Positions 6,509 to 22,066 of a stretch of 64,000 nucleotides of DNA are shown here, piece by piece. The notes beneath the pieces were generated by a model that was given only the letters and a program-made list of their open reading frames with translations, made no database searches and was not told the DNA's origin. Numbering within the stretch: the first letter of the stretch is position 1; every line of letters starts with the position of its first letter. Both the position numbers and the translations under genes were made by a program. Source of the stretch: Bacillota bacterium (GTDB taxonomy: Bacteria > Bacillota > Desulfitobacteriia > Desulfitobacteriales > JAJXUE01); contig JAJXUE010000005.1 in NCBI GenBank assembly GCA_021783135.1, positions 1 to 64,000 of the forward strand, in the 5' to 3' direction.

Positions 6509-7192
6509 ATGATGGATGATGAACAGAAATATAAGATTAAAATACTGCAAAATGGACCTTACTTAGTCACAGGAAATGTTCCTTTGTCGGAAAAGATCAT
6601 AGTTTCCAAGGGTAGAACCAAAATATTAAAGGATGGCCGCATATTACCGCAAGCTGAAGTATATGCACTCTGCAGATGTGGCAAGTCGCAAAATGCTCCC
6701 TTTTGTGACGGATCGCATGAAAGGGTAGGTTTTCTTGGAACTGAGCGGGCATCAAGGGAAAATTTCGCAGCTAGGGCTGATGTGCTTGAAGGACCGGAGC
6801 TTGATCTTCTGGATGATAATCGCTGTGCATATGCCCGCTTTTGTCATCGGGAAGACGGAAATGTATGGGAGCTTACCGAAAACTCGGATATTCCTAAGCT
6901 GCGGCAAGAGGCAATTATTGCGGCCGTTGAGTGTCCGGCAGGAAGGTTAGTCCCGTATGACAAATCGGGTCAAGCAATTGAACCTGAGTATTCACCGGCC
7001 ATAGAAATATTGCAAGATCCTGAAGAAGGAGCGAGTGGACCAATTGCTGTGAAGGGGAATATCCCGCTTGAATCTGCCCATGGATTTACTTATGAAGTAA
7101 GAAATCGCGTAGCGCTGTGTCGTTGTGGCAAATCAAGCAATATGCCATTTTGTGACGCAACACATATTTCAATTAATTATACAGATGACTAA
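6509..7192 (+). CDS. Iron-sulfur protein with two CDGSH domains and a central mono-cluster domain
   Basis: 227 residues. The first CDGSH zinc-finger-type motif (CRCGKSQNAPFCDGSH) lies near residues 52-67 and binds a [2Fe-2S] cluster through three Cys and one His. A central domain with CAYARFCH and a later ECPAGRL resembles the divergent [4Fe-4S] mono-cluster ferredoxin family. A second CDGSH-type motif (CRCGKSSNMPFCDATH) is at the C-terminus, with GS changed to AT but all four ligands kept. The role is probably electron transfer or cluster handling in the cytoplasm. A hairpin terminator follows at 7213-7253. The partner is unknown. Confidence 0.88.
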   Translation: MMDDEQKYKIKILQNGPYLVTGNVPLSEKIIVSKGRTKILKDGRILPQAEVYALCRCGKSQNAPFCDGSHERVGFLGTERASRENFAARADVLEGPELDLLDDNRCAYARFCHREDGNVWELTENSDIPKLRQEAIIAAVECPAGRLVPYDKSGQAIEPEYSPAIEILQDPEEGASGPIAVKGNIPLESAHGFTYEVRNRVALCRCGKSSNMPFCDATHISINYTDD

Positions 7193-7212
7193 ATAGATTA
7201 TTTGTGCACTAG

Positions 7213-7253
7213 AAATAGGGACGGTTGTGAGAGATGCCCAGCCGTCCCTATTT
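7213..7253. terminator. Intrinsic terminator between CDGSH gene and mntH
   Basis: A perfect 12-bp stem (AAATAGGGACGG with CCGTCCCTATTT) around a 17-base loop. The T-run is short on both sides. It lies between convergent genes and probably serves the CDGSH operon. Confidence 0.6.
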
Positions 7254-7358
7254 GGCGCGTTATTTGCTACTAACCTTAGTTCTAAACCGCACATTACTTG
7301 GCAAAATCAAACAAAAAAACGTAAACTTATTTGTACCCCGATAATGCCTTCCTGTTGT

Positions 7359-8630
7359 TTAGCCCGCAAAAGAAAGATAGAGCAATACGGCATTGAGGGA
7401 CACGATCATCGTTACAATCACTACACCAATCCAATTGGTGATTGATTTGTTGACGAAAGCACCCATAATTTCCTTGCGTTTGGTGATTAACATTAAGGGA
7501 ATTATTGCTGCGGGCAAGGCGAAACTTAGCGTCACTTGACTCATAATCAAAATTTTCATCGGGTTAAACCCTAACCACAACAACACGATGGCTGGGATTA
7601 TTGTGATGATGCGGCGCACACTTATCGGGATATCGAGACCGATAAATCCTTTGAGCATACACTCTCCTGCCATAGCCCCTACGGTTGAGGAGGAAAGCCC
7701 AGAGGCCAAAAGCGCCAGGCCAAATGCCCCGGCTGAGAAACTTCCTAGCAGGGGAGCTAAAGATTGGTGGGCCTGTTCAATCGAGTCAACAGGTGAGCCT
7801 TGACCGTAAAATACTGCCGCAGCAACCACGACCATGGCTGCATTGACTAAAAAGGCAATGTTCATGGCAAAAATTATGTCAAATCGTTCCATTTTAAAGT
7901 GACTTTTAGCTTCTTCGATACTGTCCGATTTGCGTCGTGCTTTCATTAAGTCAGAGTGCAGGTAGATCACGTGGGGCATTACTGTGGCGCCGAGCATGCC
8001 GACTGCGACCAAGATGCTCTCCGGACCTAAATTCGGTACCAAGGTATGGAATACAACGGCACCCCAGTCTGGTTTAGCCAAGAATATTTCGGCCAGATAT
8101 GAGATGCCAATTACAGCAACTAAGCCGATAATTACCCTTTCTACTACGTGCTGTCCATAGCGACGCAGAAATACAATGCCAAATGTAAGTGCAACCGTGA
8201 TACATCCTGCAGTAACTAAGGGAATGCCGAAAAGCAAATACAGTCCTAAGGTGGCACCTAAAAATTCTGCCATATAGGTGGCGATAGCGGCAAAAAGCAT
8301 AGTCGTCCAAAGCAATATGTTGGTTTTGCGGCTAAAAACCTTGCCACAATGTGTTGCCAAGTCTTCCCCGGTTACAATTCCGAGCTTTGCGGACAAAGTT
8401 TGCAGGAAAATGGCCATTAAGTTACTCCACAACACAACCCAAACCAACCCGTAATTAAAATTTGACCCGGCACTGATGTTGGTTGCAAAATTCCCAGGGT
8501 CTATGTAGGCGACACTCACTATAAAGGCCGGACCGAGGAATTTGGACAGTGCGCGCAGCTTTTCTTGCCAAGTCAAATTGAGATTTAGGGGTACGGCTAC
8601 ATTACGCGGTACGTTAATTCCTTCACTCAC
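7359..8630 (-). CDS. mntH: Nramp-family divalent metal (Mn2+/Fe2+) transporter
   Basis: A 423-residue membrane protein with about eleven helices. The metal-site motif DPGNF in the first helix (Asp44-Phe48) and the MPH motif in the sixth (GATVMPHVIYLHS) are both intact, which marks a true proton-coupled Mn2+/Fe2+ importer. The ATG is preceded by a purine-rich GGAGGAG. The gene is divergent from a DtxR-type regulator with 103 bp between the starts. A 6-bp dyad in that space is a candidate operator, so repression at high Mn is expected by analogy with the B. subtilis mntH/mntR pair. Confidence 0.95.
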   Translation of the reverse strand: MSEGINVPRNVAVPLNLNLTWQEKLRALSKFLGPAFIVSVAYIDPGNFATNISAGSNFNYGLVWVVLWSNLMAIFLQTLSAKLGIVTGEDLATHCGKVFSRKTNILLWTTMLFAAIATYMAEFLGATLGLYLLFGIPLVTAGCITVALTFGIVFLRRYGQHVVERVIIGLVAVIGISYLAEIFLAKPDWGAVVFHTLVPNLGPESILVAVGMLGATVMPHVIYLHSDLMKARRKSDSIEEAKSHFKMERFDIIFAMNIAFLVNAAMVVVAAAVFYGQGSPVDSIEQAHQSLAPLLGSFSAGAFGLALLASGLSSSTVGAMAGECMLKGFIGLDIPISVRRIITIIPAIVLLWLGFNPMKILIMSQVTLSFALPAAIIPLMLITKRKEIMGAFVNKSITNWIGVVIVTMIVSLNAVLLYLSFAG

Positions 8631-8688
8631 TTGTGCGTCTCCTCCTGTAATGGTAGTTCTAAAATTTTTTGGGCAGGAATATAGTGAT

Positions 8689-8715
8689 ACCTAACTAAGG
8701 CCACACGGATTAGGT
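8689..8715. promoter_or_regulatory. Candidate DtxR/MntR operator between mntH and its regulator
   Basis: ACCTAA at 8689-8694 and TTAGGT at 8710-8715 form a perfect dyad with 15 bases between. The half-site resembles the DtxR-family half-site (TTAGGTTAG-like). It lies in the 103-bp divergent promoter region, 19 bp before the regulator start. The position supports shared or self-regulation, and binding is inferred. Confidence 0.45.
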
Positions 8716-8733
8716 GGGTTAAGGAGGGAAAGT

Positions 8734-9174
8734 ATGCTCTCACCCAGTTTGGAGGATTATTTGGAAGAACTATACCGATTCTCTTTAACCACCCCAACTG
8801 TTCGTGTTACGGATTTAAGCACTAAGCTGCATGTTAAACTGCCGTCAGTAACCAAGGCGTTACATCGGCTCAAAGACTTAAACTACATCAAGTATGAACC
8901 CTATGGGGAAATCGAGTTGACGGAAATGGGGCGGGACAAAGGGACATTTTTGGTCAAGCGCAACAAGCTGCTACTGGAGTTTTTGACGCTAATATGTAGT
9001 GATTGTAATGTTGAGGCGGAGGCTGAAGCTATGGAACATTACTTATGTGCTGCGACTATAGCCGCAATCGATAACCTCGTAGCGTTTGCGCGAAGCAGGC
9101 CGGAGTGGTATGGACAGTTTTTGCAATACCTAGGGCAAACTTCTGAGTCAGAGCTAACACCTCCTAAAGCTTAG
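8734..9174 (+). CDS. mntR: DtxR/MntR-family metal-dependent transcription regulator
   Basis: A 146-residue protein opening with the family pattern SLEDYLEELY, followed by a winged helix in which the recognition helix reads VKLPSVTKALHRLKDLNYI. A helical dimerisation and metal-binding region follows with a Glu-rich stretch (VEAEAEAMEH). The length fits the short MntR branch without the SH3-like domain of DtxR. The ATG follows AAGGAGGG. Divergence from mntH supports Mn-dependent control of that gene. The symbol is given on family plus context. An iron-sensing relative (IdeR-like) is not excluded. Confidence 0.85.
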   Translation: MLSPSLEDYLEELYRFSLTTPTVRVTDLSTKLHVKLPSVTKALHRLKDLNYIKYEPYGEIELTEMGRDKGTFLVKRNKLLLEFLTLICSDCNVEAEAEAMEHYLCAATIAAIDNLVAFARSRPEWYGQFLQYLGQTSESELTPPKA

Positions 9175-9320
9175 TTATGGGTATACGACGCTTGGTCATA
9201 GATCATTAGCCTTAGCTAACATGATTTACTCTAAAATAGCCTATGGCATCGGCCTGTCATCGGTGCCTCTGGACAGGTAATTTGGCAAATTCCATATTTT
9301 AATAGTAATAAAGCATAAAA

Positions 9321-9370
9321 ACAAAAGGTACGAACCGTCTCGGTGAGAGGGGCTAGTACCTTTTGTTTTT
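9321..9370 (+). terminator. Intrinsic terminator
   Basis: ACAAAAGGTAC at 9321-9331 pairs with GTACCTTTTGT at 9356-9366, followed by a T-run. The 24-base loop contains a smaller GC hairpin. It ends the regulator transcript. About 150 bp before it (9175-9320) hold nothing recognisable. Confidence 0.75.
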
Positions 9371-9402
9371 CGTTCTGCTATAATTGACGCAAAGGGGGTG
9401 AC

Positions 9403-9783
9403 ATGTTAAGCGTGAACGTTAAAAAGATTAATGATTTTGTCGCTGAAAAATCAACGCTTTTATTCGGCACGATGTGGATGTTTTATGCCTTTTTTGTCTA
9501 TGGGTTATTACCTCTGATTCCACAAATATCTGCTTTTCAAAGCCAAATCTTCTATTGGTCAGGTTGGGTGCAACTCTGGGCTTTACCGTTGCTGATGGTA
9601 GGGCAAAACGTCATGGGGCGTTCTGCGGAACTGAGGGATCAAGAAACCCATGATGCAGTAATGGGTGAATTAGCCATAGTTCAAGAAGAGTTGGCACTGG
9701 CACGGGAGGAACGTGAAAGGCTGACGAACTTACTATCAGAGCTACATGCCAGGATTCCGGATGTACTTAATAGCTGTGAATAG
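9403..9783 (+). CDS. Small membrane protein with two TM helices and a C-terminal coiled coil
   Basis: 126 residues, no family recognised with confidence. Two hydrophobic helices lie at about residues 20-38 and 50-68 (the second ends at WALPLLMVGQNVMG). A charged heptad-like region (ELAIVQEELALAREERERL) then suggests a cytoplasmic coiled coil. The layout resembles small inner-membrane proteins sometimes labelled low-affinity iron permease-like, but that comparison is weak. The start follows GGGGGTGAC. It is flanked by a terminator upstream and 90 bp of spacer downstream, so it is probably monocistronic. Confidence 0.6.
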   Translation: MLSVNVKKINDFVAEKSTLLFGTMWMFYAFFVYGLLPLIPQISAFQSQIFYWSGWVQLWALPLLMVGQNVMGRSAELRDQETHDAVMGELAIVQEELALAREERERLTNLLSELHARIPDVLNSCE

Positions 9784-9873
9784 CCATTTTTGTATAACTA
9801 TTGACAAGTAATGGTATGCATTATTAAATGGGGTTGTCTTGTTGTAGTTATAAATAATTAGCGAGGTGATGGT

Positions 9874-11046
9874 ATGTATCCGTTGCTGCAAGGTATGCGC
9901 ATTCTAGATTTAACCAGGTTGCTACCGGGAGGCTACGCTACTCAACTATTGGGTGACTTAGGGGCGGAAGTATTGAAGGTTGAGGATACGAGTCAGGGCG
10001 ACTATATGCGCCAACTAGGTGTACATTTTCCGGACAGTGAAGAAAGTGCTTTGTACTGGGGTTTAAATCGTAATAAAAAAAGTATTAGGCTTAACCTAAA
10101 AAGTGAAGCGGGTAAGGAAATATTTTTTCAGCTCTTACAAACCTACGATGTTGTTATGGAGGGTTTTAGACCTGGGGTAATGGAGAAGCTAGGCTTGGGC
10201 TATGAGCAATTAAAACAGGCTAATCCGGCCGTTATTATGTGTTCTATTTCCGGCTATGGTCAGGATGGACCTTATAAGCAACGAGCGGGTCATGACATCA
10301 ACTTCACTGCTATCGCCGGTGCGTTGGGTCAAACCGGTGCGGCAGAAGGCACTCCAATCATTCCGGCTGTGCAGATTGCCGATATTGGTGGCGGAGGTCT
10401 GATGGCTGCAGTTGGCGTGTTGGCAGCCAGTATCGCCAGACAGAATACGGGTCAGGGTCAATATGTGGACGTTGCGATGTTGGATGGGGTGGTCTCTTGG
10501 ATGACGATGCTGTTCATGCAGTTGGCGGTGAATGACCCGACGGCTAAGCGCGGCAAGGGCTGGTTAAACGGAGGGCTTCCCTGCTACTCTGTCTATGAGA
10601 CCAAGGATGCAAGATATGTGAGTATCGGAGCTCTGGAAGATAAATTTTGGCAGGAGTTTTGCCGAGTCGTGGGTAGGGAAGACCTTATTTGTCAGCAGTT
10701 TTCACCGGAGGCTTGGGTGAAAAGTGAGGTAGAGGTAATCTTTAAGGCCAAAACCAGAGAGGAATGGCAGGGGATAGCAGCTGAGCATGATTTATGCTTA
10801 GAGCCTGTGTTGGATTTGGCTGAGGTCAAGCAGCACCCACAGGTGCTTGCGCGCGAGCTATTTAGTCCACTCACCCATCACCTGGCCGGCGAGGTTGACG
10901 TTGTTGGCATACCGCTTAAGTATCAGGTGGAGCAGCAGAGAGACAGTGTACCACCGGGTTGGGGTGAACACACCCGCGAGGTGCTTTTAGGCTTGGGTGT
11001 GACTGAAGCACGCATTAAAGAGCTTGGTCAAACCGGGGTGATTTGA
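9874..11046 (+). CDS. CaiB/BaiF-family (class III) CoA-transferase
   Basis: 390 residues. The N-terminal part is typical of the family (LLQGMRILDLTRLLPGGYATQLLGDLGAEVLKVE). The catalytic Asp lies in the segment AGHDINF near residue 138, which becomes acylated during CoA transfer or racemisation in this family. The closest functional types are alpha-methylacyl-CoA racemase and formyl- or succinyl-CoA transferases, and the substrate cannot be fixed from sequence. The start follows GCGAGGTGAT. An SDR gene lies 88 bp downstream on the same strand and could act on the same or a related acyl metabolite. Confidence 0.9.
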   Translation: MYPLLQGMRILDLTRLLPGGYATQLLGDLGAEVLKVEDTSQGDYMRQLGVHFPDSEESALYWGLNRNKKSIRLNLKSEAGKEIFFQLLQTYDVVMEGFRPGVMEKLGLGYEQLKQANPAVIMCSISGYGQDGPYKQRAGHDINFTAIAGALGQTGAAEGTPIIPAVQIADIGGGGLMAAVGVLAASIARQNTGQGQYVDVAMLDGVVSWMTMLFMQLAVNDPTAKRGKGWLNGGLPCYSVYETKDARYVSIGALEDKFWQEFCRVVGREDLICQQFSPEAWVKSEVEVIFKAKTREEWQGIAAEHDLCLEPVLDLAEVKQHPQVLARELFSPLTHHLAGEVDVVGIPLKYQVEQQRDSVPPGWGEHTREVLLGLGVTEARIKELGQTGVI

Positions 11047-11134
11047 TTTTGCACAACTTAACACACCAATTCGGCAAGTGCGTGTTAAAGTACGCGTCTT
11101 AGTGAAATAAATAAAACAATAGGAGGCTTTTAAC

Positions 11135-11896
11135 ATGCAAACAAGGGGCAGGATGGTTTTAATCACGGGGGGAGGCTCTGGCATCGGCTTAGCTCTGGTC
11201 GAGCGTTTTTATCAAGCCGGCAATACAGTTATTATTTGTGGACGCCGCTCGGAAAGACTGCAAGCGGCCAAGGCTAAATTTCCCAAGCTAGTTACCAAGG
11301 TATGTGACGTCGCGGATGAACCCCAGCGGCTAGCACTGTTTGCTTGGGTTGTTAATGAGTTTCCGAGCTTGGACGTTCTCGTAAACAATGCCGGGATGCA
11401 GCAACGCATCAACCTCAAACAACCAAACGCTGCTTGGAGTTATTATCAGCAAGAAATTGCGGCCAATTTGGAGGCGCCGATTCACCTGTCTTTGCTCTTT
11501 CTGCCGCATTTACTGCAGCAAGAGGCTGGGACAATTATTAATGTTTCCTCCAATTTAGGCGTTACACCTGCGGCTTGGGCGCCTATCTATAGTGCCACCA
11601 AAGCTGCGATGCATTCATTTAGCATGAGTCTTAGGTTGCAAATGGCGGAGACAAAAGTAAATATTGTGGAAGTGTTACCTCCTGCGGTTAATACGGATTT
11701 AGGCGGGGTTGGACTACATACCTTTGGCGTACCGGTGGATGATTTTGCTGACGCCGTGTTTACCGGCTTGGCCAATGGAGATAAGGAAATAGGGTATGCC
11801 GGCACGGAGAGAACAATTCGAGCTTCGCGCGATGAAATTGATGCAGGCGCCGCAGGCATGTGGCAAAATTTTATTAAGCATAATCCCGGATTTTAA
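11135..11896 (+). CDS. Short-chain dehydrogenase/reductase, DltE-like
   Basis: 253 residues with a Rossmann fold. The cofactor motif TGGGSGIG is at about 10-17, NNAG near residue 88, and the catalytic pair Tyr152-x3-Lys156 in YSATK. The pattern with a long loop after NNAGMQ is like the DltE/YciK subgroup of classical SDRs. The residue set suggests NADP(H), because Arg residues follow the second strand (CGRRSER). AGGAGGC precedes the ATG. Substrate unknown. Confidence 0.9.
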   Translation: MQTRGRMVLITGGGSGIGLALVERFYQAGNTVIICGRRSERLQAAKAKFPKLVTKVCDVADEPQRLALFAWVVNEFPSLDVLVNNAGMQQRINLKQPNAAWSYYQQEIAANLEAPIHLSLLFLPHLLQQEAGTIINVSSNLGVTPAAWAPIYSATKAAMHSFSMSLRLQMAETKVNIVEVLPPAVNTDLGGVGLHTFGVPVDDFADAVFTGLANGDKEIGYAGTERTIRASRDEIDAGAAGMWQNFIKHNPGF

Positions 11897-11948
11897 TAAA
11901 CAATACGTGAGTAAACGAAACTAGCAGGAAAAAAAGCAGCAAGAAAAG

Positions 11949-11980
11949 AACTGCCGGGACATATACGTCCTGGCAGTTTT
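11949..11980 (+). terminator. Intrinsic terminator after SDR gene
   Basis: AACTGCCGGGAC pairs with GTCCTGGCAGTT (one G-T pair) around a 6-base loop, followed by TT. It separates the CoA-transferase/SDR pair from the sigma-54 regulator gene. Confidence 0.75.
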
Positions 11981-12063
11981 ATGGTGACGTGCAGAACAAA
12001 TATAATTTGGTATAATTGACTTACACAAGAGCCAGATGGCTATAAGTTAAATGGGGTGTACTA

Positions 12064-13467
12064 ATGCAGCGGATTTTGGTGGCGGACGACGAAGTTAATA
12101 TGCGATGGGCTCTCCAGCGGGCCTTGCAAACGGCCGGCTATGAGGTGGAAACTGCAGAAGACGGGCAGTCTGCTGTCGAACAAGCTTTAGGTGATTGTCC
12201 CGACTTGGTTTTGCTTGATTATAAAATGCCCAGGCTTAATGGCTTGGACGCCCTGAAGAAGTTAAAAAGTCACTATCCGAATTTACTGGTTATCTTAATG
12301 ACTGCTCATGGCAGTACCCCAAATGCTGTTGAGGCAATGAAAGCAGGCGCCTATGATTATATCATGAAGCCGTTTGATATCGAGGAACTGCTGTTGACAG
12401 TTGCCAAGGGGCTCGAGGTTGAAAATTTACGGCAACAGGTTGATTATCTCAAAGAGGAAGTTAACGATCGTTCCGGGTGGGGCCAATTCGTAGGTACCAG
12501 CGCACCCATGACGCAAGTGTATAAGTTAGTTGAGCAGGTTGCGCCTACCTCGGCTACTGTCTTGATTCAAGGTGAATCGGGAACGGGCAAGGAACTAGTG
12601 GCCCATGCCATTCATGCGTTGAGTCCGCGCCGGGATAGGTCTTTTATTCGGGTCAATTGTGCGGCCTTACCCGAGGCTCTCTTGGAAAGTGAACTCTTTG
12701 GGCACGAAAAGGGTGCATTCACCGGAGCAATAGCTCGCAAGGCGGGGCGTTTTGAACTGGCGGACGGCGGTACGCTATTTCTCGATGAAATTGGCGAGTT
12801 ATCGCCCCATGTTCAGGTCAGATTATTAAGGGTCTTGCAAGAGCGGAGCTTTGAACGGGTCGGCGGCGAGAAAACAATCACGGTTGATGTGCGGATTATT
12901 ACGGCTACCAACCGTGACTTGTGTGTCGAAATGCAGGAAGGTCGCTTCCGGGAGGATTTGTTTTATAGGCTGAATGTTTTTCCTCTTACAGTACCACCGC
13001 TGCGCGAACGCAGCGATGACATACCTTTATTAGTGAACCATTTTCTCGCAGTATACTCCCAGGGCCAAGATAAACGACTTACGCCTGATGCCTTAGAGGC
13101 GCTTTTAAACTATACTTGGCCCGGAAACGTGCGTGAACTGCAAAACTTCGTGGAACGGATGGTGATTATATGCCCCGGGCGCGAAATCGGACGGGAATAT
13201 CTACCTCAGTTAATCTTATCACCCCGCTTAGGCAGAGAGTCCGCACAGATTAATTTACCCCCCCAAGGTATTTCCTTAGAACAGTTAGAAAAATCCTTGT
13301 TGCAGCAAGCTATCGAACAAACCAAGGGCAATCAGAGCAAAGCTGCCCGGTTGTTGGGTTTATCCAGGTATTCTTTTTTGTACAGGCTGAGCAAACATCA
13401 AATTGACGCACATCATCAGGAGGAAGTCGGTACGGGTAAACAAAAAAATCCTACGAAGGAGTCATAA
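12064..13467 (+). CDS. NtrC-type sigma-54-dependent response regulator
   Basis: 467 residues in three parts. A receiver domain has the acidic pair Asp8-Asp9, the phosphorylation site Asp52 (LLDYKMP) and the conserved Thr and Lys (LMTAHGS, IMKPFD). A central AAA+ domain has Walker A GESGTGKE at 170-177 and the sigma-54 contact loop GAFTGA at 217-222. A C-terminal Fis-type helix-turn-helix reads [20 protein letters not shown]. It should activate RNA polymerase-sigma-54 from upstream sites when phosphorylated. The kinase gene starts 6 bp downstream. The only sigma-54 promoter recognised in the window lies just past the kinase gene, with two repeated dyads in the expected enhancer position. Confidence 0.96.
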
Positions 13468-13473
13468 AGCAAC

Positions 13474-14622
13474 ATGAGCGAGCCATACTCGGTTAAGCCC
13501 AGCCACTTAAGAAATGCTATAGACTTGATTATCATTTTTTTGTTCATCATTGTCCTAACCTATATTCACTATACTTCCTATCAGTATGCTGTTGACTACC
13601 ACATTTTGTTGCAATTTGGCTACTACATTCCGGTCATATATGCTGCTATGCGGTTTGGTCCGTCCGGCGGTATTGCATCGGGTTTGGTAATTACAATTCT
13701 CTTTTTGCCTCACTTAGCCCATTTTCGCACTATAAGTCTGGCTGCGTGGTATACGCAGTGGGTAGAAATTATTTTGATTAACGTGATTGGTTGGTTAACC
13801 GGATTTTTAATCCGCCAGGAGCGCCAGGTCACGCGGCGTTACCGGCACGCGCTGGCGGTGCAAAGTGATCTCGTAGAACAGCTCAAACGCGAAGGTGAAC
13901 AACGCGAGCGTCTGGAGCAAGAGGTGCGACGGGCGGAGCGGTTGACGGCGCTAGGCCACCTGAGTGCCGGGCTTGCCCATGAAATTCGTAACCCTTTAGG
14001 CGTAATTCAGGTAACCGCTCAATTGCTCACCCGTGAAAGACCTCAGGATGAAGTGGTGGGTGAATATTGCCGTGTTCTGCAAGAAGAGGGTGGTCGACTC
14101 AACCGTATGGTTAGTCAATTTCTGGATTTTGCCCGTCCGAAGGAGCCGATCCGGCAACGGATGGCTTTAAAACGGGTAGTAGAAGAGGGAACAGCTTTAG
14201 CAATACCGCTTTTGCGGCAGTCCAAAATTCGCTTTGAGCAAAACTTGGGAGGGGTCGGAGAGCAGGTGGTTGAAGTGGACTTTGACCAAATGAAACAAGT
14301 TATGCTCAATGTCTTAATTAATGCCATCGAAGCCCAAGGACAAGACGGTGTAATTACCCTTGAAGGCCATCAGGCCCCCGGATTTGTCGGTTTGGTTGTT
14401 AGTGATCAAGGCCCCGGTATCCCAGTCGACATTCTTCCCTATGTCTTTGACCCTTTTTTCACGACCAAGGATAAAGGGGCAGGCTTAGGCTTGTCGGTAG
14501 TCCACGGCATTATTACGCAGCACGGCGGCAAGATTTCTCTGGTCAACAATACCGCTGGAGGGATCAGGGTCGAGATCCTCTTGCCGATTCAAGTTAAGGA
14601 TAAAACTGACTCTAGCACTTAA
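13474..14622 (+). CDS. Membrane sensor histidine kinase, partner of the NtrC-type regulator
   Basis: 382 residues. Four hydrophobic helices occupy about residues 15-115 with almost no external loop, so it probably senses within or at the membrane or in the cytoplasm. A coiled linker leads to the phosphoacceptor His169 in LAHEIRNPLG. The ATPase domain shows the N box (MLNVLINAIEAQ), the G1 box (VSDQGPGIP), an F box (DPFFTTKDKGAGLGL) and the G2 box. It belongs to the NtrB/AtoS/ZraS-like group that pairs with sigma-54 activators. It follows the regulator by 6 bp and a terminator lies at 14685-14726. Confidence 0.95.
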   Translation: MSEPYSVKPSHLRNAIDLIIIFLFIIVLTYIHYTSYQYAVDYHILLQFGYYIPVIYAAMRFGPSGGIASGLVITILFLPHLAHFRTISLAAWYTQWVEIILINVIGWLTGFLIRQERQVTRRYRHALAVQSDLVEQLKREGEQRERLEQEVRRAERLTALGHLSAGLAHEIRNPLGVIQVTAQLLTRERPQDEVVGEYCRVLQEEGGRLNRMVSQFLDFARPKEPIRQRMALKRVVEEGTALAIPLLRQSKIRFEQNLGGVGEQVVEVDFDQMKQVMLNVLINAIEAQGQDGVITLEGHQAPGFVGLVVSDQGPGIPVDILPYVFDPFFTTKDKGAGLGLSVVHGIITQHGGKISLVNNTAGGIRVEILLPIQVKDKTDSST

Positions 14623-14684
14623 TTGCCTTCCGGGCTTTGGTCTTTCCCCCTAGATCATGATATTTATAGTTTTTTATAGCCATT

Positions 14685-14726
14685 GGCTCCTACTGTTAGG
14701 TATTCCTGCAGGAGGAGTCTTTTTTA
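14685..14726 (+). terminator. Intrinsic terminator after the two-component genes
   Basis: A 7-bp stem (GGCTCCT with AGGAGTC, one G-T pair) with a 21-base loop and a six-base T-run at 14720-14725. It separates the two-component operon from the sigma-54 promoter region. Confidence 0.6.
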
Positions 14727-14733
14727 ACATGCG

Positions 14734-14769
14734 TGTGCTAAATGACACAAGAATGCGCTATATGGCACA
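14734..14769. promoter_or_regulatory. Two phased 16-bp dyads, candidate enhancer sites for the NtrC-type regulator
   Basis: TGTGCTAAATGACACA at 14734-14749 and TGCGCTATATGGCACA at 14754-14769 match at 13 of 16 positions and each has TGYG...CACA symmetry. Their starts are exactly 20 bp apart, close to two helical turns. They lie about 97 and 117 bp upstream of the predicted start of the sigma-54 promoter, the usual enhancer distance. They are the obvious binding sites for the adjacent regulator, though binding is inferred. Confidence 0.65.
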
Positions 14770-14831
14770 AGCCTGCAATTTGACCGTGTTACAAGTGTTC
14801 TGAACCAGCCCAAAACTCCACTTGTGAACGT

Positions 14832-14847
14832 TGGCACGATCCTTGCT
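14832..14847 (+). promoter_or_regulatory. Sigma-54 (-24/-12) promoter
   Basis: TGGCAC-N5-TTGCT, a full match to the sigma-54 consensus TGGCAC-N5-TTGCW with the invariant GG and GC correctly spaced. The expected transcription start is near 14858, giving a 45-base leader before the Met-rich protein. It is directly downstream of an NtrC-type regulator and kinase. Confidence 0.88.
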
Positions 14848-14902
14848 TAAAATAATTGCGCTCCTCGTATTTGGACAAAAAAATGAGAAAGTAGGTGCGA
14901 AA

Positions 14903-15226
14903 TTGCAAGGTAGTACTCGAAAAGTATGCGGTTCTATTTTATTAAGTTTAGTTTTGCTGTTTAACCTTGCCGGTGTGGTCTTAGCGGATGGTAACAATCA
15001 AAGTATGCCTGGGATGAATATGTCCAGCTCAGACCAAAACACCAATCAAAACAGTATGCCCGGGATGAATATGCCGAGCACCAACCAAAACAGTATGACC
15101 GGGATGGCTAGTCAATCCTCTGCCCAGGGAGTTAATTGGTATATTGTCGGCGGATTCATCTTATTTAATTGCCTAATAGTGATTTCAGCCGCCCTAGCCA
15201 AGCCCTCGGCCAAGGGCCTTAAGTAG
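14903..15226 (+). CDS. Met-rich exported membrane-anchored small protein
   Basis: 107 residues, no family recognised. A signal peptide or first membrane helix lies at about 10-30 (ILLSLVLLFNLAGVVLADG). The exposed middle contains two copies of SMPGMNM and one SMTGM, separated by Asn/Gln/Ser-rich linkers. A second hydrophobic helix (WYIVGGFILFNCLIVISAALA) is near the C-terminus. Clusters of Met with spacing M-x2-M-x-M are seen in proteins that bind Cu(I) or Ag(I), so metal binding is plausible but not shown. The TTG start follows AGTAGGTG at a 5-base spacing, and in-frame upstream codons would place the start at or before the promoter. It is the first gene of the sigma-54 unit, 15 bp before the polyferredoxin. 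Confidence 0.7.
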   Translation: MQGSTRKVCGSILLSLVLLFNLAGVVLADGNNQSMPGMNMSSSDQNTNQNSMPGMNMPSTNQNSMTGMASQSSAQGVNWYIVGGFILFNCLIVISAALAKPSAKGLK

Positions 15227-15241
15227 AAAGGTGGTAAAATA

Positions 15242-16648
15242 ATGTCCATTGCCAGAGTCCCCGACAGTCCCAAACCTGAAGACCAAGAGCCAAAGCCTAA
15301 CGCAAAGTCAAAAAATTTGCTGCATAACAAAACAATTAAAGCTATCCTGCAAAGCCCATGGTTTCCCGGCATTATTCAGGTTCCGGTTTTGCTGGTTTTT
15401 GCTCTTATAGTATTTGAACTGGTAGCAGGTCCCAGCGATGCCCATGGTAATTTTGGTACAGCGGGAACTTGGGTGTTGTGGTGGCCGTTAATTCCTATCA
15501 TTTTAATTGTTTTGGGACGTTTCTGGTGTGCTATTTGTCCCTTTGCGACTGTAAGCGACTGGGTGCAAAAGTGGGTTGGCAACCAACGACCTGTGCCCAA
15601 GTTCCTTAAGAAGTATGGTATTTGGTTAATCGACATTTTCTTTATCCTGATTACTTGGTCTGATCATGTTGTCGGGATTGTGGAAAATCCACGTGGCTCA
15701 GGCACACTGTTACTGCTCATAACTACCGGTGTAATTGCCAGCGGGGCATTTTTTGAACGGCGTACTTGGTGTAGATACTTGTGTTTTTTGGGTGGGCTTT
15801 CCGGCAACTATGCCCGTTCCGGTGGCTTGGAACTGAGCGCAACCCCGGAAAAGTGCGCTAGTTGTAAAACTCAATCCTGCTATAAAGGGAATGAAAAAGC
15901 ACCGGGCTGCCCGATGTTTGAATTTCCGCGCACAATGGATAGCATGGCAAGCTGTAACTTGTGTGCCAACTGCATTAAATCCTGCCCAAATGACTCAATT
16001 CAGTTGCACACGCGGATTCCCAGTACAGGCCTTTGGTTTATTAATAAGCCGAAATTTGAGGAATCATTTTTAGCGATCATAATTATGGGCATTGTGTTTG
16101 TGCAGAATATAACGATGATAAGCATCTGGCAGCCTATCCTTACAGCCTTACAAAATATTGTCGGCACGACAAATTACTATATAACATTTACAATTACTTT
16201 TATAATTGCGATGGGTCTACCTGTCTTGGCCCTTTTCGCTGCTAGTTGGGGAGCAAAATTGGCAAACGGCAAAAAAACAGTGGAAAATTTCGCCCGCTTT
16301 GGCTATTCCTTAATTCCCTTGGATTTGGCCGGACACATCGCGCACAATCTTTTTCACCTTCTAGCAGAAGGAAAGTCGGTGTATTTTACTTTTCTAGCAC
16401 TATTCGGCCAGGCAATTCCGAACGGATCTACGGCTTTGGTCGCCACTCCAACTATTCAGCTCATGCAATTTATCTTGATTGCCCTGGGCACGATTGGTTC
16501 CGGTTATGCCGCTTATAGAATAGCTAAGCATAACTTTGGCGGGGAAGGCAAGACTGCGGGCAGCTTCGTGCCCTATGGGGTGTTAATTGTAGTCTTGGCG
16601 GCTATCAATGTTTACCTGTTTACGTTGCCGATGTCGATGCGGATGTAA
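15242..16648 (+). CDS. Polytopic membrane [4Fe-4S] protein, NapH/NosR/CcoG-like
   Basis: 468 residues. Membrane helices near 40-65 and 75-95 precede CAICPF at about 98-103. A second CxxxC segment follows (RRTWCRYLCFLGG). Next is a soluble ferredoxin-like part with CASCKTQSC and CNLCANCIKSCPNDSI, enough Cys for two [4Fe-4S] clusters. Four or five more helices fill the C-terminal half. The polyferredoxin families with CxxCP in membrane loops include NapH, NosR and the Cu(II) reductase CcoG. It should pass electrons across or along the membrane. Co-transcription with the Met-rich protein from the sigma-54 promoter suggests a shared metal or redox role. The electron donor and acceptor are unknown. 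Confidence 0.85.
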   Translation: MSIARVPDSPKPEDQEPKPNAKSKNLLHNKTIKAILQSPWFPGIIQVPVLLVFALIVFELVAGPSDAHGNFGTAGTWVLWWPLIPIILIVLGRFWCAICPFATVSDWVQKWVGNQRPVPKFLKKYGIWLIDIFFILITWSDHVVGIVENPRGSGTLLLLITTGVIASGAFFERRTWCRYLCFLGGLSGNYARSGGLELSATPEKCASCKTQSCYKGNEKAPGCPMFEFPRTMDSMASCNLCANCIKSCPNDSIQLHTRIPSTGLWFINKPKFEESFLAIIIMGIVFVQNITMISIWQPILTALQNIVGTTNYYITFTITFIIAMGLPVLALFAASWGAKLANGKKTVENFARFGYSLIPLDLAGHIAHNLFHLLAEGKSVYFTFLALFGQAIPNGSTALVATPTIQLMQFILIALGTIGSGYAAYRIAKHNFGGEGKTAGSFVPYGVLIVVLAAINVYLFTLPMSMRM

Positions 16649-16680
16649 ATTTTGTTGTTTCATTGCTACTTTTATAGCTT

Positions 16681-16715
16681 AGGCTCAGTCAGGGTAATCC
16701 TGCTGAGCCTATTTT
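16681..16715. terminator. Terminator between polyferredoxin gene and MFS remnant
   Basis: AGGCTCAG at 16681-16688 pairs with CTGAGCCT at 16703-16710, with an inner CAGG/CCTG pair, followed by ATTTT. It lies between convergent genes and can act in both directions. Confidence 0.7.
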
Positions 16716-17224
16716 CATTCTTGTTCTAAAGTTTTGACGCCAAGGAGTTCAGGGAATAGCTTCATCCACATTAACGCTACGATAATCGTCCCTATGCCGC
16801 CAATCACGACCGAGGGTACTGTACCAAACCAGGCAGCCGTGGTTCCGGACTCGAACTCTCCCAGTTGGTTAGATGTGCCGATAAACAAACTATTCACCGC
16901 ACTGACCCTCCCGCGCATTTCATCGGGGGTCTTTAGTTGCACCAAAGCTGACCTGATCACAACGCTGACAACATCTGATGCGCCTAAAACTGTAAGCGCG
17001 GCTATTGACAGGGCAAAAGAAGTCGATACAGCAAAAACTAGGGTTGAGATACCAAATATAATGACTGCATAAAACATGATGCGTCCAACGCGCCGACGGA
17101 TAGGATGACGTGCTAAAAATAACGACATGATTACTGCACCAACAGCCGGTGCGGCACGCATAAGGCCCAATCCTGCCGGACCGGTATGAAAAATGTCCTG
17201 CGCAAATCTACGTGTGGTTCGGCA
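16715..17224 (-). pseudogene. Truncated MFS transporter (C-terminal half only)
   Basis: About 170 codons that read as the C-terminal half of a major facilitator transporter of the EntS-like MFS_3 group. The segment DIFHTGPAGLGLMRAAPAVGA corresponds to the loop and helix that begin the second six-helix bundle. The motif TPDEMRGRVSAV is also present. An intact member has about 400-420 residues, so the first half is missing. On the minus strand the frame is closed by a TAA at 17225-17227, just beyond the recognisable homology, and no N-terminal half is found upstream. An internal ATG at 17168-17170 could start a 151-residue protein, but this would lack half the fold. It is treated as a decayed gene. 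Confidence 0.75.
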
Positions 17225-17398
17225 TTACTGTGAAGGTAATGTGGTATTGACCAATACATGGTTTGATAAGAAATATAGAGGAAAACGTCAATTTGACGAG
17301 AAGTAAAAGTAAATAGATTTAGAGAAAAGTGCTAATTAAATTTTTTCAGATATTTGGGTACTAAATATTGTAAGTTGTGACTTAAAGGAGGATGAGTT

Positions 17399-19711
17399 AT
17401 GGATAGTCAGCTAGGAGAGGATTATTTCCATTCGATTCAAATGTTAATTCGCAATTTCAGTGTTTCTGGTACTGAACAGGATTTTTTTGATAACGTTGTC
17501 GACCTGATTCAAACCGTAAGTGGGTGTCGGTTTATTGGCATTCGGATGTTGGATGAAACAGGTTTTATTCCGTACCAATCTTACGTTGGTTTTAGTCAAG
17601 AATTTTGGGAACACGAAAATGTGCTGTCAGGTGATAAATCCATTATCAATCCAAACGGTGCGTTGGTAAGTAATGATACCACATTAGCTAACTTTGTTGG
17701 CTTGACTAAAGAGGAGCGGGATAGTTTTCGTGCAGCGTGTGTCAATGCCGGGAATCGAAGTCTAGCCATAATACCGATTGTTTATCGTAACATTACTATA
17801 GGAGTTATTCACATAGCAGATCCACTCCCCAATCAGATTAGCGTTGCAACTATTGAGTTTGTCGAGTCTATTGCTCCGCTTATCGGGGAAGTGATTGATC
17901 GAGGTAAGATTGAGCAGTCGCTGGAAATAAGTCGCTATAACCAAGAAATAATCAAAAATATTGTGAGTGGCATCAGCAGTCTTGCCTATGTCGTGAATGT
18001 TGCCTCCTTTGAGATTATTTATGCTAACAACTCTTTGTTCGAACTTAGCGGCCAAGACTTCACTGGAGCCAAGTGTTATGAAATATTTAACCGTGTGTCG
18101 GCCTGCCCGGATTGTCCTATCCAGGCTAATCCCCTTGAGCAATGTACAGGACAATGCTGGGAGCGTTACGAGGTCAGTTCAGATCGGTATTATATTGCGG
18201 AGCAGAAACTAATTAGGTGGCCGGATGGAAAGAACGTTAATGCTGCTTTTGTATCGGATATCACGCAACAAAAACAGACGGAAAAGGCCCTGCAAGCAGC
18301 TAATACGCAATTAGAACATTCTGTGAGTGAATTACAAGACCTAGGGACATCACTCGAAGAAGAAATCATGGAACGCGCCGCGGCCCAGGAAGAATTAAAT
18401 CAAAAAAATGAGGAATTTAGGAAACTTGCTTATTTTGATGTATTAACCGGTCTGCCGAACCGTGCCTTTATTAACAAGAAACTAGCAGAGGAAGTGGCCA
18501 AGAGTCTGTGCGGTGAAGGTTTCGGCGTGGTCTATTTTATCGACTTGGATGATCTTAAGTTGGTAAATGATACCTTCGGGCATACGTACGGTGATGCGCT
18601 CATTTGCACGGCAGGACAATGGCTCGTGCGAGAATTTGGCGAAGGCACTTTTGTCGGGCGTATCGGCGGGGATGAGTTTATGGTCATCGTGCCTGGCGAG
18701 CGCGATCCCCTCAAGATTAGTCATGCAGCTGATCGCATTATTAAGCTCTTTGATCAGGAGATAGAGGTACTGGGAGTGCACTTTCATGTTTCAGCCAGTT
18801 TAGGTATTGCCAGTTATCCTGAAAATGGCGTTGACGCCGAGGAGATTTTCAAAAATGCGGATAACGCAATGTACGCTGCGAAAAAATCCGGCAAAAACAG
18901 GTGGCGTTTTTATAAGCCAGAGATGCAGATGGAGGCTTATGGGCACATATTATTATCATATAATCTACGCAAGGCTGTTGAACAAGACGAATTTTTCCTG
19001 CACTATCAGCCGCTAGTGCAGATCAGCAATGGTTCCATCATAGGATTTGAAGCTTTAATCAGGTGGAATAGCTCGTTTGGCGAGCCGATACCTCCGTTAG
19101 CCTTTATACCGCTTGCGGAACAAAATGGGCTGATTCATGCCATCGGTAAACGGGTCTTAAGTGAAGCCTGTTTGTTTGCCAGGCGGGTATCTGACAGCGG
19201 GCTAGGTGATATTCGTATAGCTGTGAACGTGTCTCCCTATCAGTTATGCAGTGTTGATTTTATCAAGAACGTACGGGAAGCCTTGGCAAAAGCTGCAATA
19301 GCACCTGGAAGACTTGAACTGGAAATCACTGAGAATGCCCTCATCGCTTCGTTGGAGGACAGCCTGGCTAATCTTAATGAGCTAAAGACTATGGGAGTTC
19401 GCTTGGCGCTCGATGATTTTGGTACCGGGTACTCATCCTTGACTTATTTGCAACAGTTGCCGGTAGACATTCTGAAGATTGATAAATCGTTTATCGATAT
19501 GCTGATAGCTGCAGGAACGAAAAAGGAAATAATCGGGGCTATTGTGGACATGGCACATGTCATGGACTTGTCGGTCGTTGCCGAAGGAGTGGAAACCTCG
19601 GCACAACTGGAGTATTTAACCAACTGTGGGTGTGACTATTATCAAGGCTATTTTAAGAGCCGGCCTGTTGCAGAAGATGCAGCGCTACAGCTGCTTGCGA
19701 AGAATATATAA
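17399..19711 (+). CDS. GAF-PAS-GGDEF-EAL cyclic-di-GMP signalling protein
   Basis: 770 residues, no membrane helix, so cytoplasmic. A GAF-like domain (about 15-165) is followed by a PAS domain (about 185-295) with a Cys-rich loop (CPDCP, then CTGQC). A coiled linker leads to the GGDEF domain, with an intact GGDEF at 423-427. The EAL domain has its signature at about 551-553 and the DDFGTGYSSLTYL and KIDKSFI motifs. Both cyclase and phosphodiesterase motifs look intact. AAAGGAGGATG precedes the ATG. The TetR gene starts 45 bp downstream, and co-transcription is possible but not required. Confidence 0.95.
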   Translation: MDSQLGEDYFHSIQMLIRNFSVSGTEQDFFDNVVDLIQTVSGCRFIGIRMLDETGFIPYQSYVGFSQEFWEHENVLSGDKSIINPNGALVSNDTTLANFVGLTKEERDSFRAACVNAGNRSLAIIPIVYRNITIGVIHIADPLPNQISVATIEFVESIAPLIGEVIDRGKIEQSLEISRYNQEIIKNIVSGISSLAYVVNVASFEIIYANNSLFELSGQDFTGAKCYEIFNRVSACPDCPIQANPLEQCTGQCWERYEVSSDRYYIAEQKLIRWPDGKNVNAAFVSDITQQKQTEKALQAANTQLEHSVSELQDLGTSLEEEIMERAAAQEELNQKNEEFRKLAYFDVLTGLPNRAFINKKLAEEVAKSLCGEGFGVVYFIDLDDLKLVNDTFGHTYGDALICTAGQWLVREFGEGTFVGRIGGDEFMVIVPGERDPLKISHAADRIIKLFDQEIEVLGVHFHVSASLGIASYPENGVDAEEIFKNADNAMYAAKKSGKNRWRFYKPEMQMEAYGHILLSYNLRKAVEQDEFFLHYQPLVQISNGSIIGFEALIRWNSSFGEPIPPLAFIPLAEQNGLIHAIGKRVLSEACLFARRVSDSGLGDIRIAVNVSPYQLCSVDFIKNVREALAKAAIAPGRLELEITENALIASLEDSLANLNELKTMGVRLALDDFGTGYSSLTYLQQLPVDILKIDKSFIDMLIAAGTKKEIIGAIVDMAHVMDLSVVAEGVETSAQLEYLTNCGCDYYQGYFKSRPVAEDAALQLLAKNI

Positions 19712-19755
19712 AATGTCTAAGATATAGCTATGCTAATTTGATTGTGGGAGGTAAA

Positions 19756-20319
19756 ATGTCTAGTTCACAGCTGACCAAAAGAGCCCTGGCAAATTCCCTC
19801 AAGGAGTTAATGCAGCATACGCAGCTCAATAAGATTTCGGTTCAGAACATCACGGACAGCTGTGGTCTTAACCGGCAGACTTTTTACTATCATTTTCACG
19901 ACATATTTGAGTTATTGGGCTGGATCTACGCCACTGAGGCTATTGACAGTGTTGATGCTTACAAGAACTATACAAACTGGCCGGAAGGTTTGCAGCGGAT
20001 ATTTATGTATATTGAAAGAAATCGTGCATTTTGCCTCAATACCTTAAATTCCTTAGGGCGCGATCATCTAGACACATATCTGTATGCAGTAACCTTTGAA
20101 TTAATTATGGGCGTTGTAATTGAACTTGCCGCTGACCTGCAGGTTGAACCGGAAGCTAAGAAATTCTTGGCTAATTTCTATACCCTGGCTTTTTCCGGGC
20201 TGGTCATTCAGTGGATGAAAAACGGCATGAAAGATAAACCAGAGCTAATAATCAGTCGACTTAGCGAATTGCTGGAGGGCAACTTTTTGAAGGCCTTGCA
20301 AAGATATGCTAAAGGGTGA
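19756..20319 (+). CDS. TetR-family transcription regulator
   Basis: 187 residues. The N-terminal helix-turn-helix (KISVQNITDSCGLNRQTFYYHFHDIFEL) is typical of the TetR family, and the C-terminal half is the DhaS/TetR_C_7 type of ligand or coactivator domain. GGGAGGT is 4 bases before the ATG at 19756, and a TTG 18 bases upstream is less likely. The oleate hydratase gene lies 154 bp downstream on the same strand with a dyad in between, so control of that gene is a reasonable inference. Confidence 0.9.
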   Translation: MSSSQLTKRALANSLKELMQHTQLNKISVQNITDSCGLNRQTFYYHFHDIFELLGWIYATEAIDSVDAYKNYTNWPEGLQRIFMYIERNRAFCLNTLNSLGRDHLDTYLYAVTFELIMGVVIELAADLQVEPEAKKFLANFYTLAFSGLVIQWMKNGMKDKPELIISRLSELLEGNFLKALQRYAKG

Positions 20320-20340
20320 CTTTTGACACTTTTGTAGTTT

Positions 20341-20357
20341 TGTCTAAAAACCAGACA
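20341..20357. promoter_or_regulatory. 17-bp dyad upstream of oleate hydratase, candidate TetR operator
   Basis: TGTCT at 20341-20345 and AGACA at 20353-20357 are a perfect inverted pair with 7 bases between. It sits between the TetR gene and ohyA, about 115-130 bp before the ohyA start. The size fits a TetR-type operator. There is no direct proof. Confidence 0.4.
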
Positions 20358-20473
20358 GCCACTAACAATTGTGCATGCCCTTTTGCAGCCGTCCGCTCTA
20401 TAGTTAAGGTGTTGGGAACAGCCAAGTTAAGGCGTTCTTAGCACGCATTTTTTAACTGTGGAGGGTGGTTAAT

Positions 20474-22066
20474 ATGATAAAGGAACATGCTAACAAACAT
20501 GCCAACCAACAGGTATATTTTGTCGGAGGCGGGATAGGGTCGCTGGCGGGTGCTGCCTTTTTAGTGCGCGACTGTGATTTCCCCGGCCCCAATATTCATA
20601 TTCTGGAAGAGATGAATATTCTGGGCGGTAGCAATGATGGGGCAGGTAACCCGGACCAAGGTTATGTAATTCGCGGTGGCAGGATGCTTAATGATGAAGT
20701 ATATGAAAATACCTGGGATTTGCTGCTGTCCATTCCGTCTTTAGATGATCCGCACAAATCAGTCAGGGAAGAAATTATTGCATTTGACACGGCCCACCCT
20801 ACCCATTCTAAGGCCAGATTGGTCAATAAGGAGGGTGAAATTGAGGACGTCCTGTCGATGGGGTTTGACCTTGCGGACAGAATTGCTCTGGCGAAAATGA
20901 TGGTTGCGCCGGAGGCCCAAATGGGCAAGGCGCTCATTAATGATTGGTTTGGGCCGCATTTCTTCGAGACGAATTTCTGGTACATGTGGGCGACAACTTT
21001 TGCGTTTCAGCCTTGGCATAGTGCGGTGGAATTCAAGCGATATCTAGTGCGCTTCATCCATGAGTTCCCGCGCATTCAAACCTTGGAAGGTGTGACCAGA
21101 ACCACTTATAATCAATACGATTCTATCATCCTGCCTCTACAGAACTACGTTGCCGGGCACGGTGTTGATTTTGCCATGCAATGTACGGTAACTGACTTAG
21201 ACTTTACCGCCTCGGCTGATATTACCGTGAGCAAAATTCACTATGTTAAAGGCGGGGTAGCCGGAAGTATTGAGCTCGCACCGGATGACTTGGTAATAGT
21301 TACGAACGGCTCGATGACGGAAGGATATGGCTTGGGTTCAATGACCAAGGCGCCAAGCCTGAACGGTAAGGGGAGCTCCTGGCAGCTATGGGACAAGATA
21401 GCTGCGAAAAAACCGGGTTTAGGCAATCCGTCTGCTTTTGACGATCACATTCAAGGTTCGAAATGGGAATCCTTCACGGTGACTTGTCAGGATGCGAAAT
21501 TCTTCGATTTGATGGAGCAGTTTTCCCGCAATCAAGCCGGAAGCGGTGCGCTGGTTACCTTTAAAGATTCAAGCTGGTTTATGTCGATTGTGTTAGCGCA
21601 CCAACCGCATTTTAGAAACCAACCAGAACACGTCAAGGTGTTTTGGGGCTATGGGCTGTATCCTGACAATGTGGGTGATTATGTCCGTAAAAGAATGTCG
21701 GATTGTACAGGCGAAGAAATATTAACTGAACTGCTGCACCATCTCAAATTTGACCAGGACATGGCTGCTATCATCCAATCCGCTAACTGCATTCCTTGCA
21801 TGATGCCTTTTATCACGGCGCAATTTATGCCGCGCGCCCTTGGCGACAGGCCGCAAGTTGTACCTGAAGGCTCAACAAACCTGGCCTTCATCGGGCAATT
21901 TTGTGAAATACCAGATGATGTGGTATTTACGGAAGAATATTCAGTGCGGGCGGCCCGCATCGCGGTGTACCAGTTGTTGGGCATCAATAAACCCGTTGCC
22001 CCGATTAATCAGTACCAATATGATGTCAGGACCTTGTTTAATTCATTTATAACATCCTTCAGATAA
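20474..22066 (+). CDS. ohyA: Oleate hydratase (FAD-dependent fatty acid hydratase)
   Basis: 530 residues. The FAD-binding start reads VYFVGGGIGSLAGAAFLVRD, then EEMNILGGSNDGAG and RGGRMLNDEVYENTWDLL, which are characteristic of the bacterial 10-linoleic hydratase (MCRA) family. The enzyme adds water to the cis-9 double bond of oleic and related acids to give 10-hydroxy acids, which detoxifies free unsaturated fatty acids. Known members have 560-650 residues, so this is a shorter form. GGAGGG sits 8 bases before the ATG at 20474. A strong terminator follows at 22150-22180. It is likely regulated by the TetR protein upstream. Confidence 0.92.
   Translation: MIKEHANKHANQQVYFVGGGIGSLAGAAFLVRDCDFPGPNIHILEEMNILGGSNDGAGNPDQGYVIRGGRMLNDEVYENTWDLLLSIPSLDDPHKSVREEIIAFDTAHPTHSKARLVNKEGEIEDVLSMGFDLADRIALAKMMVAPEAQMGKALINDWFGPHFFETNFWYMWATTFAFQPWHSAVEFKRYLVRFIHEFPRIQTLEGVTRTTYNQYDSIILPLQNYVAGHGVDFAMQCTVTDLDFTASADITVSKIHYVKGGVAGSIELAPDDLVIVTNGSMTEGYGLGSMTKAPSLNGKGSSWQLWDKIAAKKPGLGNPSAFDDHIQGSKWESFTVTCQDAKFFDLMEQFSRNQAGSGALVTFKDSSWFMSIVLAHQPHFRNQPEHVKVFWGYGLYPDNVGDYVRKRMSDCTGEEILTELLHHLKFDQDMAAIIQSANCIPCMMPFITAQFMPRALGDRPQVVPEGSTNLAFIGQFCEIPDDVVFTEEYSVRAARIAVYQLLGINKPVAPINQYQYDVRTLFNSFITSFR

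Follow-up and report, generated by a model that had tools for sequence, protein, structure and literature searches.

A predicted sigma-54 two-component switch upstream of a Met-rich protein and a membrane polyferredoxin in a Desulfitobacteriales genome

The window analysed in this work, i.e., the whole stretch of 64,000 nucleotides at the beginning of contig JAJXUE010000005.1 (assembly GCA_021783135.1; Bacillota bacterium, order Desulfitobacteriales), harbors in positions 12064–16648 the genes of a two-component system, followed by those coding for a small Met-rich protein and a membrane polyferredoxin (hereinafter MET and PFD, respectively). A first-pass annotation of the sequence had described this region as a self-contained sigma-54 module; the elements on which it relied (an NtrC-type regulator with Asp52, a kinase, a terminator, dyads, a sigma-54 promoter and two genes 15 bp apart) were all recovered where it had placed them:

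12064..13467, + strand: NtrC-type response regulator (RR), sigma-54 activator, 467 amino acids (aa); Pfam domains Response_reg, Sigma54_activat, and HTH_8.
13474..14622, + strand: membrane histidine kinase (HK), 382 aa; domains HisKA and HATPase_c.
about 14685..14725, + strand: intrinsic terminator downstream of the kinase gene; hairpin of -19.2 kcal/mol (z -3.6), then T6.
14734..14749, + strand: putative activator site 1, TGTGCTAAATGACACA, a 16-bp dyad; the only unmismatched copies in the genome are sites 1 and 2, and related paired dyads occur in Desulfosporosinus.
14754..14769, + strand: putative activator site 2, TGCGCTATATGGCACA, a 16-bp dyad 20 bp from site 1; same basis.
14832..14847, + strand: sigma-54 promoter, TGGCACGATCCTTGCT, exact consensus; the Desulfosporosinus counterpart lies about 4-59 bp upstream of the predicted start of the MET open reading frame (ORF).
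14903..15226, + strand: MET, 107 aa, TTG start; signal peptide, Met-rich segment (SMPGMNM repeats), and C-terminal membrane anchor.
15242..16648, + strand: PFD, membrane polyferredoxin, 468 aa; Fer4_5 domains score above cut-off, and the gene starts 15 bp downstream of MET.

The RR translation contains Asp52 and the GESGTGKE and GAFTGA motifs. The system belongs to the sigma-54 NtrC family according to both its proteins (REC, AAA with the two motifs, and Fis-type HTH domains, plus a cognate kinase) and its DNA (a -24/-12 promoter, paired upstream dyads, and an rpoN gene, present once in the genome). A REC-AAA-Fis regulator, a membrane kinase, and a sigma-54 promoter with upstream dyads are also the hallmarks of ZraSR and AtoSC; however, RR falls below the NCBIfam equivalog cut-offs (433.9 vs. 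760 for ZraR and 509.1 vs. 714 for AtoC), and the predicted target is a different one, the MET-PFD pair. The N-terminal part of HK is made up of membrane segments and has no large domain outside the cytoplasm; its residues H32, H43, Q47, R60, W96, and E98 are invariant across orthologues that share 58-62% identity with HK. A survey of Clostridiales sigma-54 regulons lists a regulator, XhpR, for Desulfosporosinus, Carboxydocella, and Desulfotomaculum; its target is "hyp-memP", of unknown function, and its sites are of the type TGT-N10-12-ACA (PMC6615313). XhpR, which could not be matched to the locus, may or may not be the regulator of the window.

The pattern TGGCACN5TTGCW has one exact match in the window, at 14832-14847, and 10 in the genome, where the reversed pattern has none. 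Unmismatched dyads occur twice in the 2.71-Mb genome, both times at the MET-PFD locus; the search for further regulon members through the dyad sequence did not retrieve any unmismatched copy elsewhere in the same genome, and for this reason the regulator looks local. An Rfam search of positions 7000-20500 gave no match. The mechanically defined ORF of MET opens at TTG 14831, upstream of the point (about 14858) where transcription is expected to begin; the most likely start is TTG 14903, because it is the sole canonical in-frame start downstream of that point, and the protein read from it has a signal-peptide-like N-terminus, as its homologues do. Residues 30-80 of MET include eight Met (P about 4e-5 vs. 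the local background, for a segment picked after seeing the sequence). The other nine exact sigma-54 sites of the genome (L060-L068) comprise several that precede look-alikes of iron alcohol dehydrogenase (L066), RidA (L062), and lysine aminomutase (L064).

The arrangement regulator-kinase-MET-PFD, with promoter and upstream dyads, recurs in Desulfosporosinus, to which the bacterium of the window is related. Such synteny was what the first-pass annotation had named as support for its module, and the idea of a self-contained sigma-54 two-component unit driving MET-PFD is borne out by the conservation of gene set, promoter, and dyads in that genus. Regulator and kinase, promoter, and dyads join MET-PFD only in the bacterium of the window and in Desulfosporosinus. 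MET is preceded by a sigma-54 site with a score of 9 or more out of 11 at 17 of the 20 loci with the regulator vs. 8 of the 59 without it, and paired dyads are found at 16/20 vs. 3/59, all these counts coming from related sequences and hence not representing independent events. Seven of the eight promoter-positive loci lacking the regulator belong to Desulfosporosinus; in the eighth (L124) the site falls inside the reading frame. The Desulfosporosinus dyads, of the TGTGGGAAATCCCACA type, are 22 bp apart, and the dyad sequence of the window is also present in L039 and, less exactly, in L041. The Desulfosporosinus orthologues of RR (66-70% identity) adjoin MET-PFD or PF10080 genes, and those of HK found beside MET-PFD share 58-64% identity. 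A kinase orthologue is harbored by 7/7 Desulfosporosinus-type (g6) genomes tested, and none of 10 related genomes outside Desulfosporosinus and the family of the window gave a match at E<=1e-60; in G001, a member of that family, the kinase match reaches just 35% and no promoter precedes MET.

These comparisons strongly support the predicted switch anatomy and its inheritance together with the promoter. Most lineages possess the pair without an NtrC-type regulator or a sigma-54 promoter, as would be expected if MET-PFD were a housekeeping pair adjoining by chance a regulator that does not control it; nevertheless, the exact promoter, the uniqueness of the dyad pair within the genome, and the correlation of presence and absence with the regulator make this very improbable. 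Two kinase homologues occur without MET-PFD (L080:8019-9140 and L079:8107-9359); one adjoins heavy-metal P-type ATPase-like and ArsR-like genes, and the other, which is broken, lies near a CopZ-like gene.

The pair itself is much more widely distributed. Out of 82 distinct PFD genes, 80 had the upstream neighbour in view, and 70 of these are preceded on the same strand (median gap 5 bp) by a gene for a short protein with a hydrophobic N-terminus and a C-terminal anchor; several of the remaining 10 resemble ORF-start errors. In L049, MET and PFD are fused in a single protein. The hosts include Desulfosporosinus, Clostridium, Moorella, Heliobacterium, Desulfotomaculum-type bacteria, Propionispira, and Anaerolineales (Chloroflexi), among others. 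Within the order, PFD orthologues form a group with 75-77% identity, a smaller one with 66-67%, and a clade with 55-59%; the relatives in the 80 named loci kept span 44-76%, and one on a Deinococcus plasmid shares 53.5%. PFD copies with stops or fragmented were observed in some Desulfosporosinus-type genomes (G021:C24:387155-388228, G017, and G025). One annotated record labels the pair merely as "4Fe-4S binding protein" and "hypothetical protein". The first-pass annotation knew of no described system with this pairing; we likewise found no description of the MET-PFD switch unit in the literature, although the pairing as such is widespread. Moreover, we found no paper linking the polyferredoxin to copper in Desulfosporosinus, or YtkA with a 4Fe-4S protein and copper, and one study of oxygen stress in Desulfosporosinus does not mention the genes of the unit.

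In three Desulfosporosinus loci (L075, L076, and L078), regulator and kinase genes, sigma-54 site, and dyads stand directly before a PF10080-ABC-FtsX-FtsX cluster, without MET-PFD; in many others the order is MET-PFD-PF10080-ABC-FtsX-FtsX. PF10080 (DUF2318), ABC, and permease proteins are components of Fet iron uptake (PMC10783030, PMC6083913); Campylobacter FetA, FetD, FetB, and FetC are of these domain types and are needed, with FetMP, for growth under iron limitation (PMC10783030). The same switch would drive, in Desulfosporosinus, homologues of genes of the FetMP-FetABCDEF system of Campylobacter jejuni, alone or after MET-PFD; however, those loci lack P19 and FTR1, and PF10080 is missing from the genome of the window. 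Across the order, 38 of the 74 genomes contain PF10080 but only seven contain P19, so that MET-PFD often stands where FetMP would. Both the constancy of the MET-PFD pairing and the sharing of the switch with Fet-like genes emerge from sequence and its comparison.

As for PFD, 12 Cys, H142, H365, H368, and H372 are invariant over 53 homologues. The AlphaFold2 model (pLDDT 85.9) predicts that the C-terminal half forms a helical, His-rich membrane domain, and a sequence search against solved structures matched generic ferredoxin segments only. The relationships of PFD were examined by means of a tree and profile comparison of 22 proteins, in which long branches limit the grouping. PFD falls in one group (support 94/95) with FtrD and with haloarchaeal, FTR1-fused, and cNMP/AAA-fused polyferredoxins; CcoG, NapH, and YccM lie outside. 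The PFD profile assigns 66-212 bits to FtrD (66-77), FTR1-fused, and cNMP/AAA-fused polyferredoxins, and only 34-36 to NapH and YccM. These data place PFD, as far as such a tree permits, in the FtrD-side branch.

NapH and YccM share with PFD the Fer4_5 membrane Fe-S architecture; however, PFD scores 29.4 bits vs. the TIGR02163 (NapH) cut-off of 213.05, lacks a NapG partner, and has an additional C-terminal domain. CcoG (RdxA/FixG) with CcoH (FixH) offers a parallel, a CxxC-type Fe-S membrane protein beside a small anchored extracytoplasmic one, and the first-pass annotation had regarded CcoG as the pertinent relative. Its metal/redox theme holds, but this relative does not: in the 22-sequence set, the PFD profile gave no CcoG match at E<=10, and the C-terminal half of PFD is modelled as the membrane domain just described and not as an Ig-like one. 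By sequence, PFD was not assigned to the CcoG family. Firmicutes, B. subtilis for instance, have been described as lacking a CcoG homologue (PMC13344008).

Two fused relatives were also observed. L007:445-2595 codes for a 716-aa fusion of an FTR1 iron permease with a polyferredoxin, and FTR1 matches in frames of similar length (732-734 aa) occur in some Desulfosporosinus-type genomes. L006:1468-3942 (- strand) and L183:1690-4404 encode an 824-aa protein in which a cyclic-nucleotide-binding domain and an AAA domain of the sigma-54 type, lacking GAFTGA, are combined with a membrane polyferredoxin. Many genomes of the order give matches in open frames of about the same length, and a cyanobacterial one is annotated as "nitrogen assimilation regulatory protein".

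PFD matches the FtrD of FtrABCD, and in both cases the adjoining gene encodes a small extracytoplasmic metal-binding partner; the rhizobial FtrD was identified through its FtrA-, FtrB-, and FTR1-type neighbours. In the genome of the window, on the other hand, FTR1 and P19 (FtrA) are replaced by MET, and control would be exerted by a sigma-54 two-component system. The relationship with FtrD and the common Fet-like regulon suggest iron, and one possibility is an iron-redox unit in which PFD acts as electron donor or acceptor in the handling of Fe(II)/Fe(III), as thought for FtrD, and MET replaces P19/FtrA. The FtrD-side phylogeny with the FTR1 fusion, the co-regulation with PF10080-ABC-FtsX, and the requirement of Fet genes under iron limitation (PMC10783030) agree with it. 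We consider it somewhat improbable, given that the three Fet/Ftr proteins FTR1, P19, and PF10080 are not in the genome of the window and that Met-rich sites would be unusual for iron.

Copper is suggested, in turn, by the Met repeats, by YtkA, and by the neighbours of the pair in some lineages. Many MET homologues carry a YtkA domain (42.5 bits in Clostridium L117; 20.4 bits, below cut-off, in L056), which in the MET of the window may have been lost or never present; in B. subtilis, YtkA/CtaK takes part in delivering copper (PMC13344008). Genes for a copper ATPase, a cupredoxin, or a multicopper oxidase lie near MET-PFD in some lineages. These features, with the MxM repeats and the precedent of CcoG (PMC7558416), would fit a Cu(II) reductase working with a Cu(I) chaperone in copper resistance or delivery, in the manner of CcoG and under a copper-sensing kinase. 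This, too, is somewhat improbable: PFD is not a CcoG, the common regulon of Desulfosporosinus is Fet-like, the unit of the window contains no copper gene, and HK has no metal-binding extracytoplasmic domain. The copper reading of the first-pass annotation survives as one option, the conserved neighbours and the common regulon pointing as much to iron redox of the Fet/Ftr type.

Other neighbours point in a different direction. In L055, ResB-CcsA-CcdA genes follow PFD, DsbD-thioredoxin genes lie near several loci, and PF10080 (DUF2318) proteins contain CxxC motifs (PMC6083913). PFD might then export reducing power to extracytoplasmic CxxC proteins (PF10080, DsbD/thioredoxin, ResB/CcsA), maintaining thiols and cytochromes under oxygen or redox stress, with MET protecting or scavenging. 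Such neighbours are rare and absent from the window and from the Clostridium units, and neither MET nor PFD has a thiol-reductase domain; hence, we consider this unlikely.

In Clostridium, MET-PFD lies among polyprenyl synthase, DoxX, UbiA, and UbiE genes. In L091, L117, and other Clostridium loci these form an operon-like series, complete or partial, polyprenyl synthase-DoxX-YtkA/MET-PFD-UbiA-CAAX protease-UbiE, found in C. ljungdahlii, C. magnum, C. folliculivorans, and others, which hints at a possible quinone-based pathway in acetogens and fermenters. Since quinone-synthesis genes flank the pair, a quinone partner is suggested.

According to these data, the reading that we prefer, with a probability of roughly 50%, is that MET-PFD represents a quinone-linked electron carrier of the membrane and an extracytoplasmic partner that binds metal, both governed by a local sigma-54 switch of their own. 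PFD would shuttle electrons between the quinones of the membrane and its outer side by way of Fe-S clusters and a His-rich membrane domain; MET, anchored beside it outside the membrane, would bind a metal (Cu or Fe), which would be brought to, or maintained in, the reduced state with a view to its uptake or detoxification. The local kinase would phosphorylate the regulator, which would occupy the two dyads some 80 bp upstream and activate the sigma-54 polymerase at 14832-14847. Electron transfer by PFD is likely, the route via quinone being suggested by the Clostridium loci; a metal as substrate, its identity, the direction of the electrons, and the signal of the kinase are points that we infer.

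Several observations weigh against this interpretation. The MET of the window has no Pfam match and hence no YtkA (PF13115) domain, and Met-rich segments are no proof of copper; Foldseek found no PDB fold matching the PFD model at E<=0.001, and the biochemistry of FtrD is itself unproven. No PF10080, FTR1 (PF03239), or P19 (PF10634) was found in the genome of the window, implying that MET-PFD works here without Fet partners. Lastly, the neighbours of MET-PFD vary by lineage, so that a single role in metal handling might not apply to every one of them. A broader proposal can be advanced only tentatively, namely, that MET-PFD forms a class of extracytoplasmic metal reductases that is new, widespread, and powered by quinone, apart from CcoG and with a constant YtkA/Met-rich carrier partner, for which Desulfosporosinus and its relatives would have recruited a sigma-54 system that also drives a Fet-type transporter lacking P19 and FTR1.

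Little is known of how anaerobic Gram-positive bacteria reduce extracytoplasmic copper or iron, and MET-PFD is conserved across several phyla. The link with the switch would connect the still unexplained PF10080-ABC-FtsX iron-uptake module to an electron carrier; moreover, thanks to the clean local sigma-54 switch, the inducer of MET-PFD is directly testable.

Concerning the surroundings of the unit, an NRAMP metal transporter gene divergent from that of a DtxR-type repressor (7359-9174) lies about 3 kb upstream. Right after PFD, at 16715-17170 (- strand), there is a short MFS transporter fragment of 151 aa, probably a remnant, and positions 20465-22066 code for a protein of the MCRA family (PF06100), whose known members are oleate hydratases.

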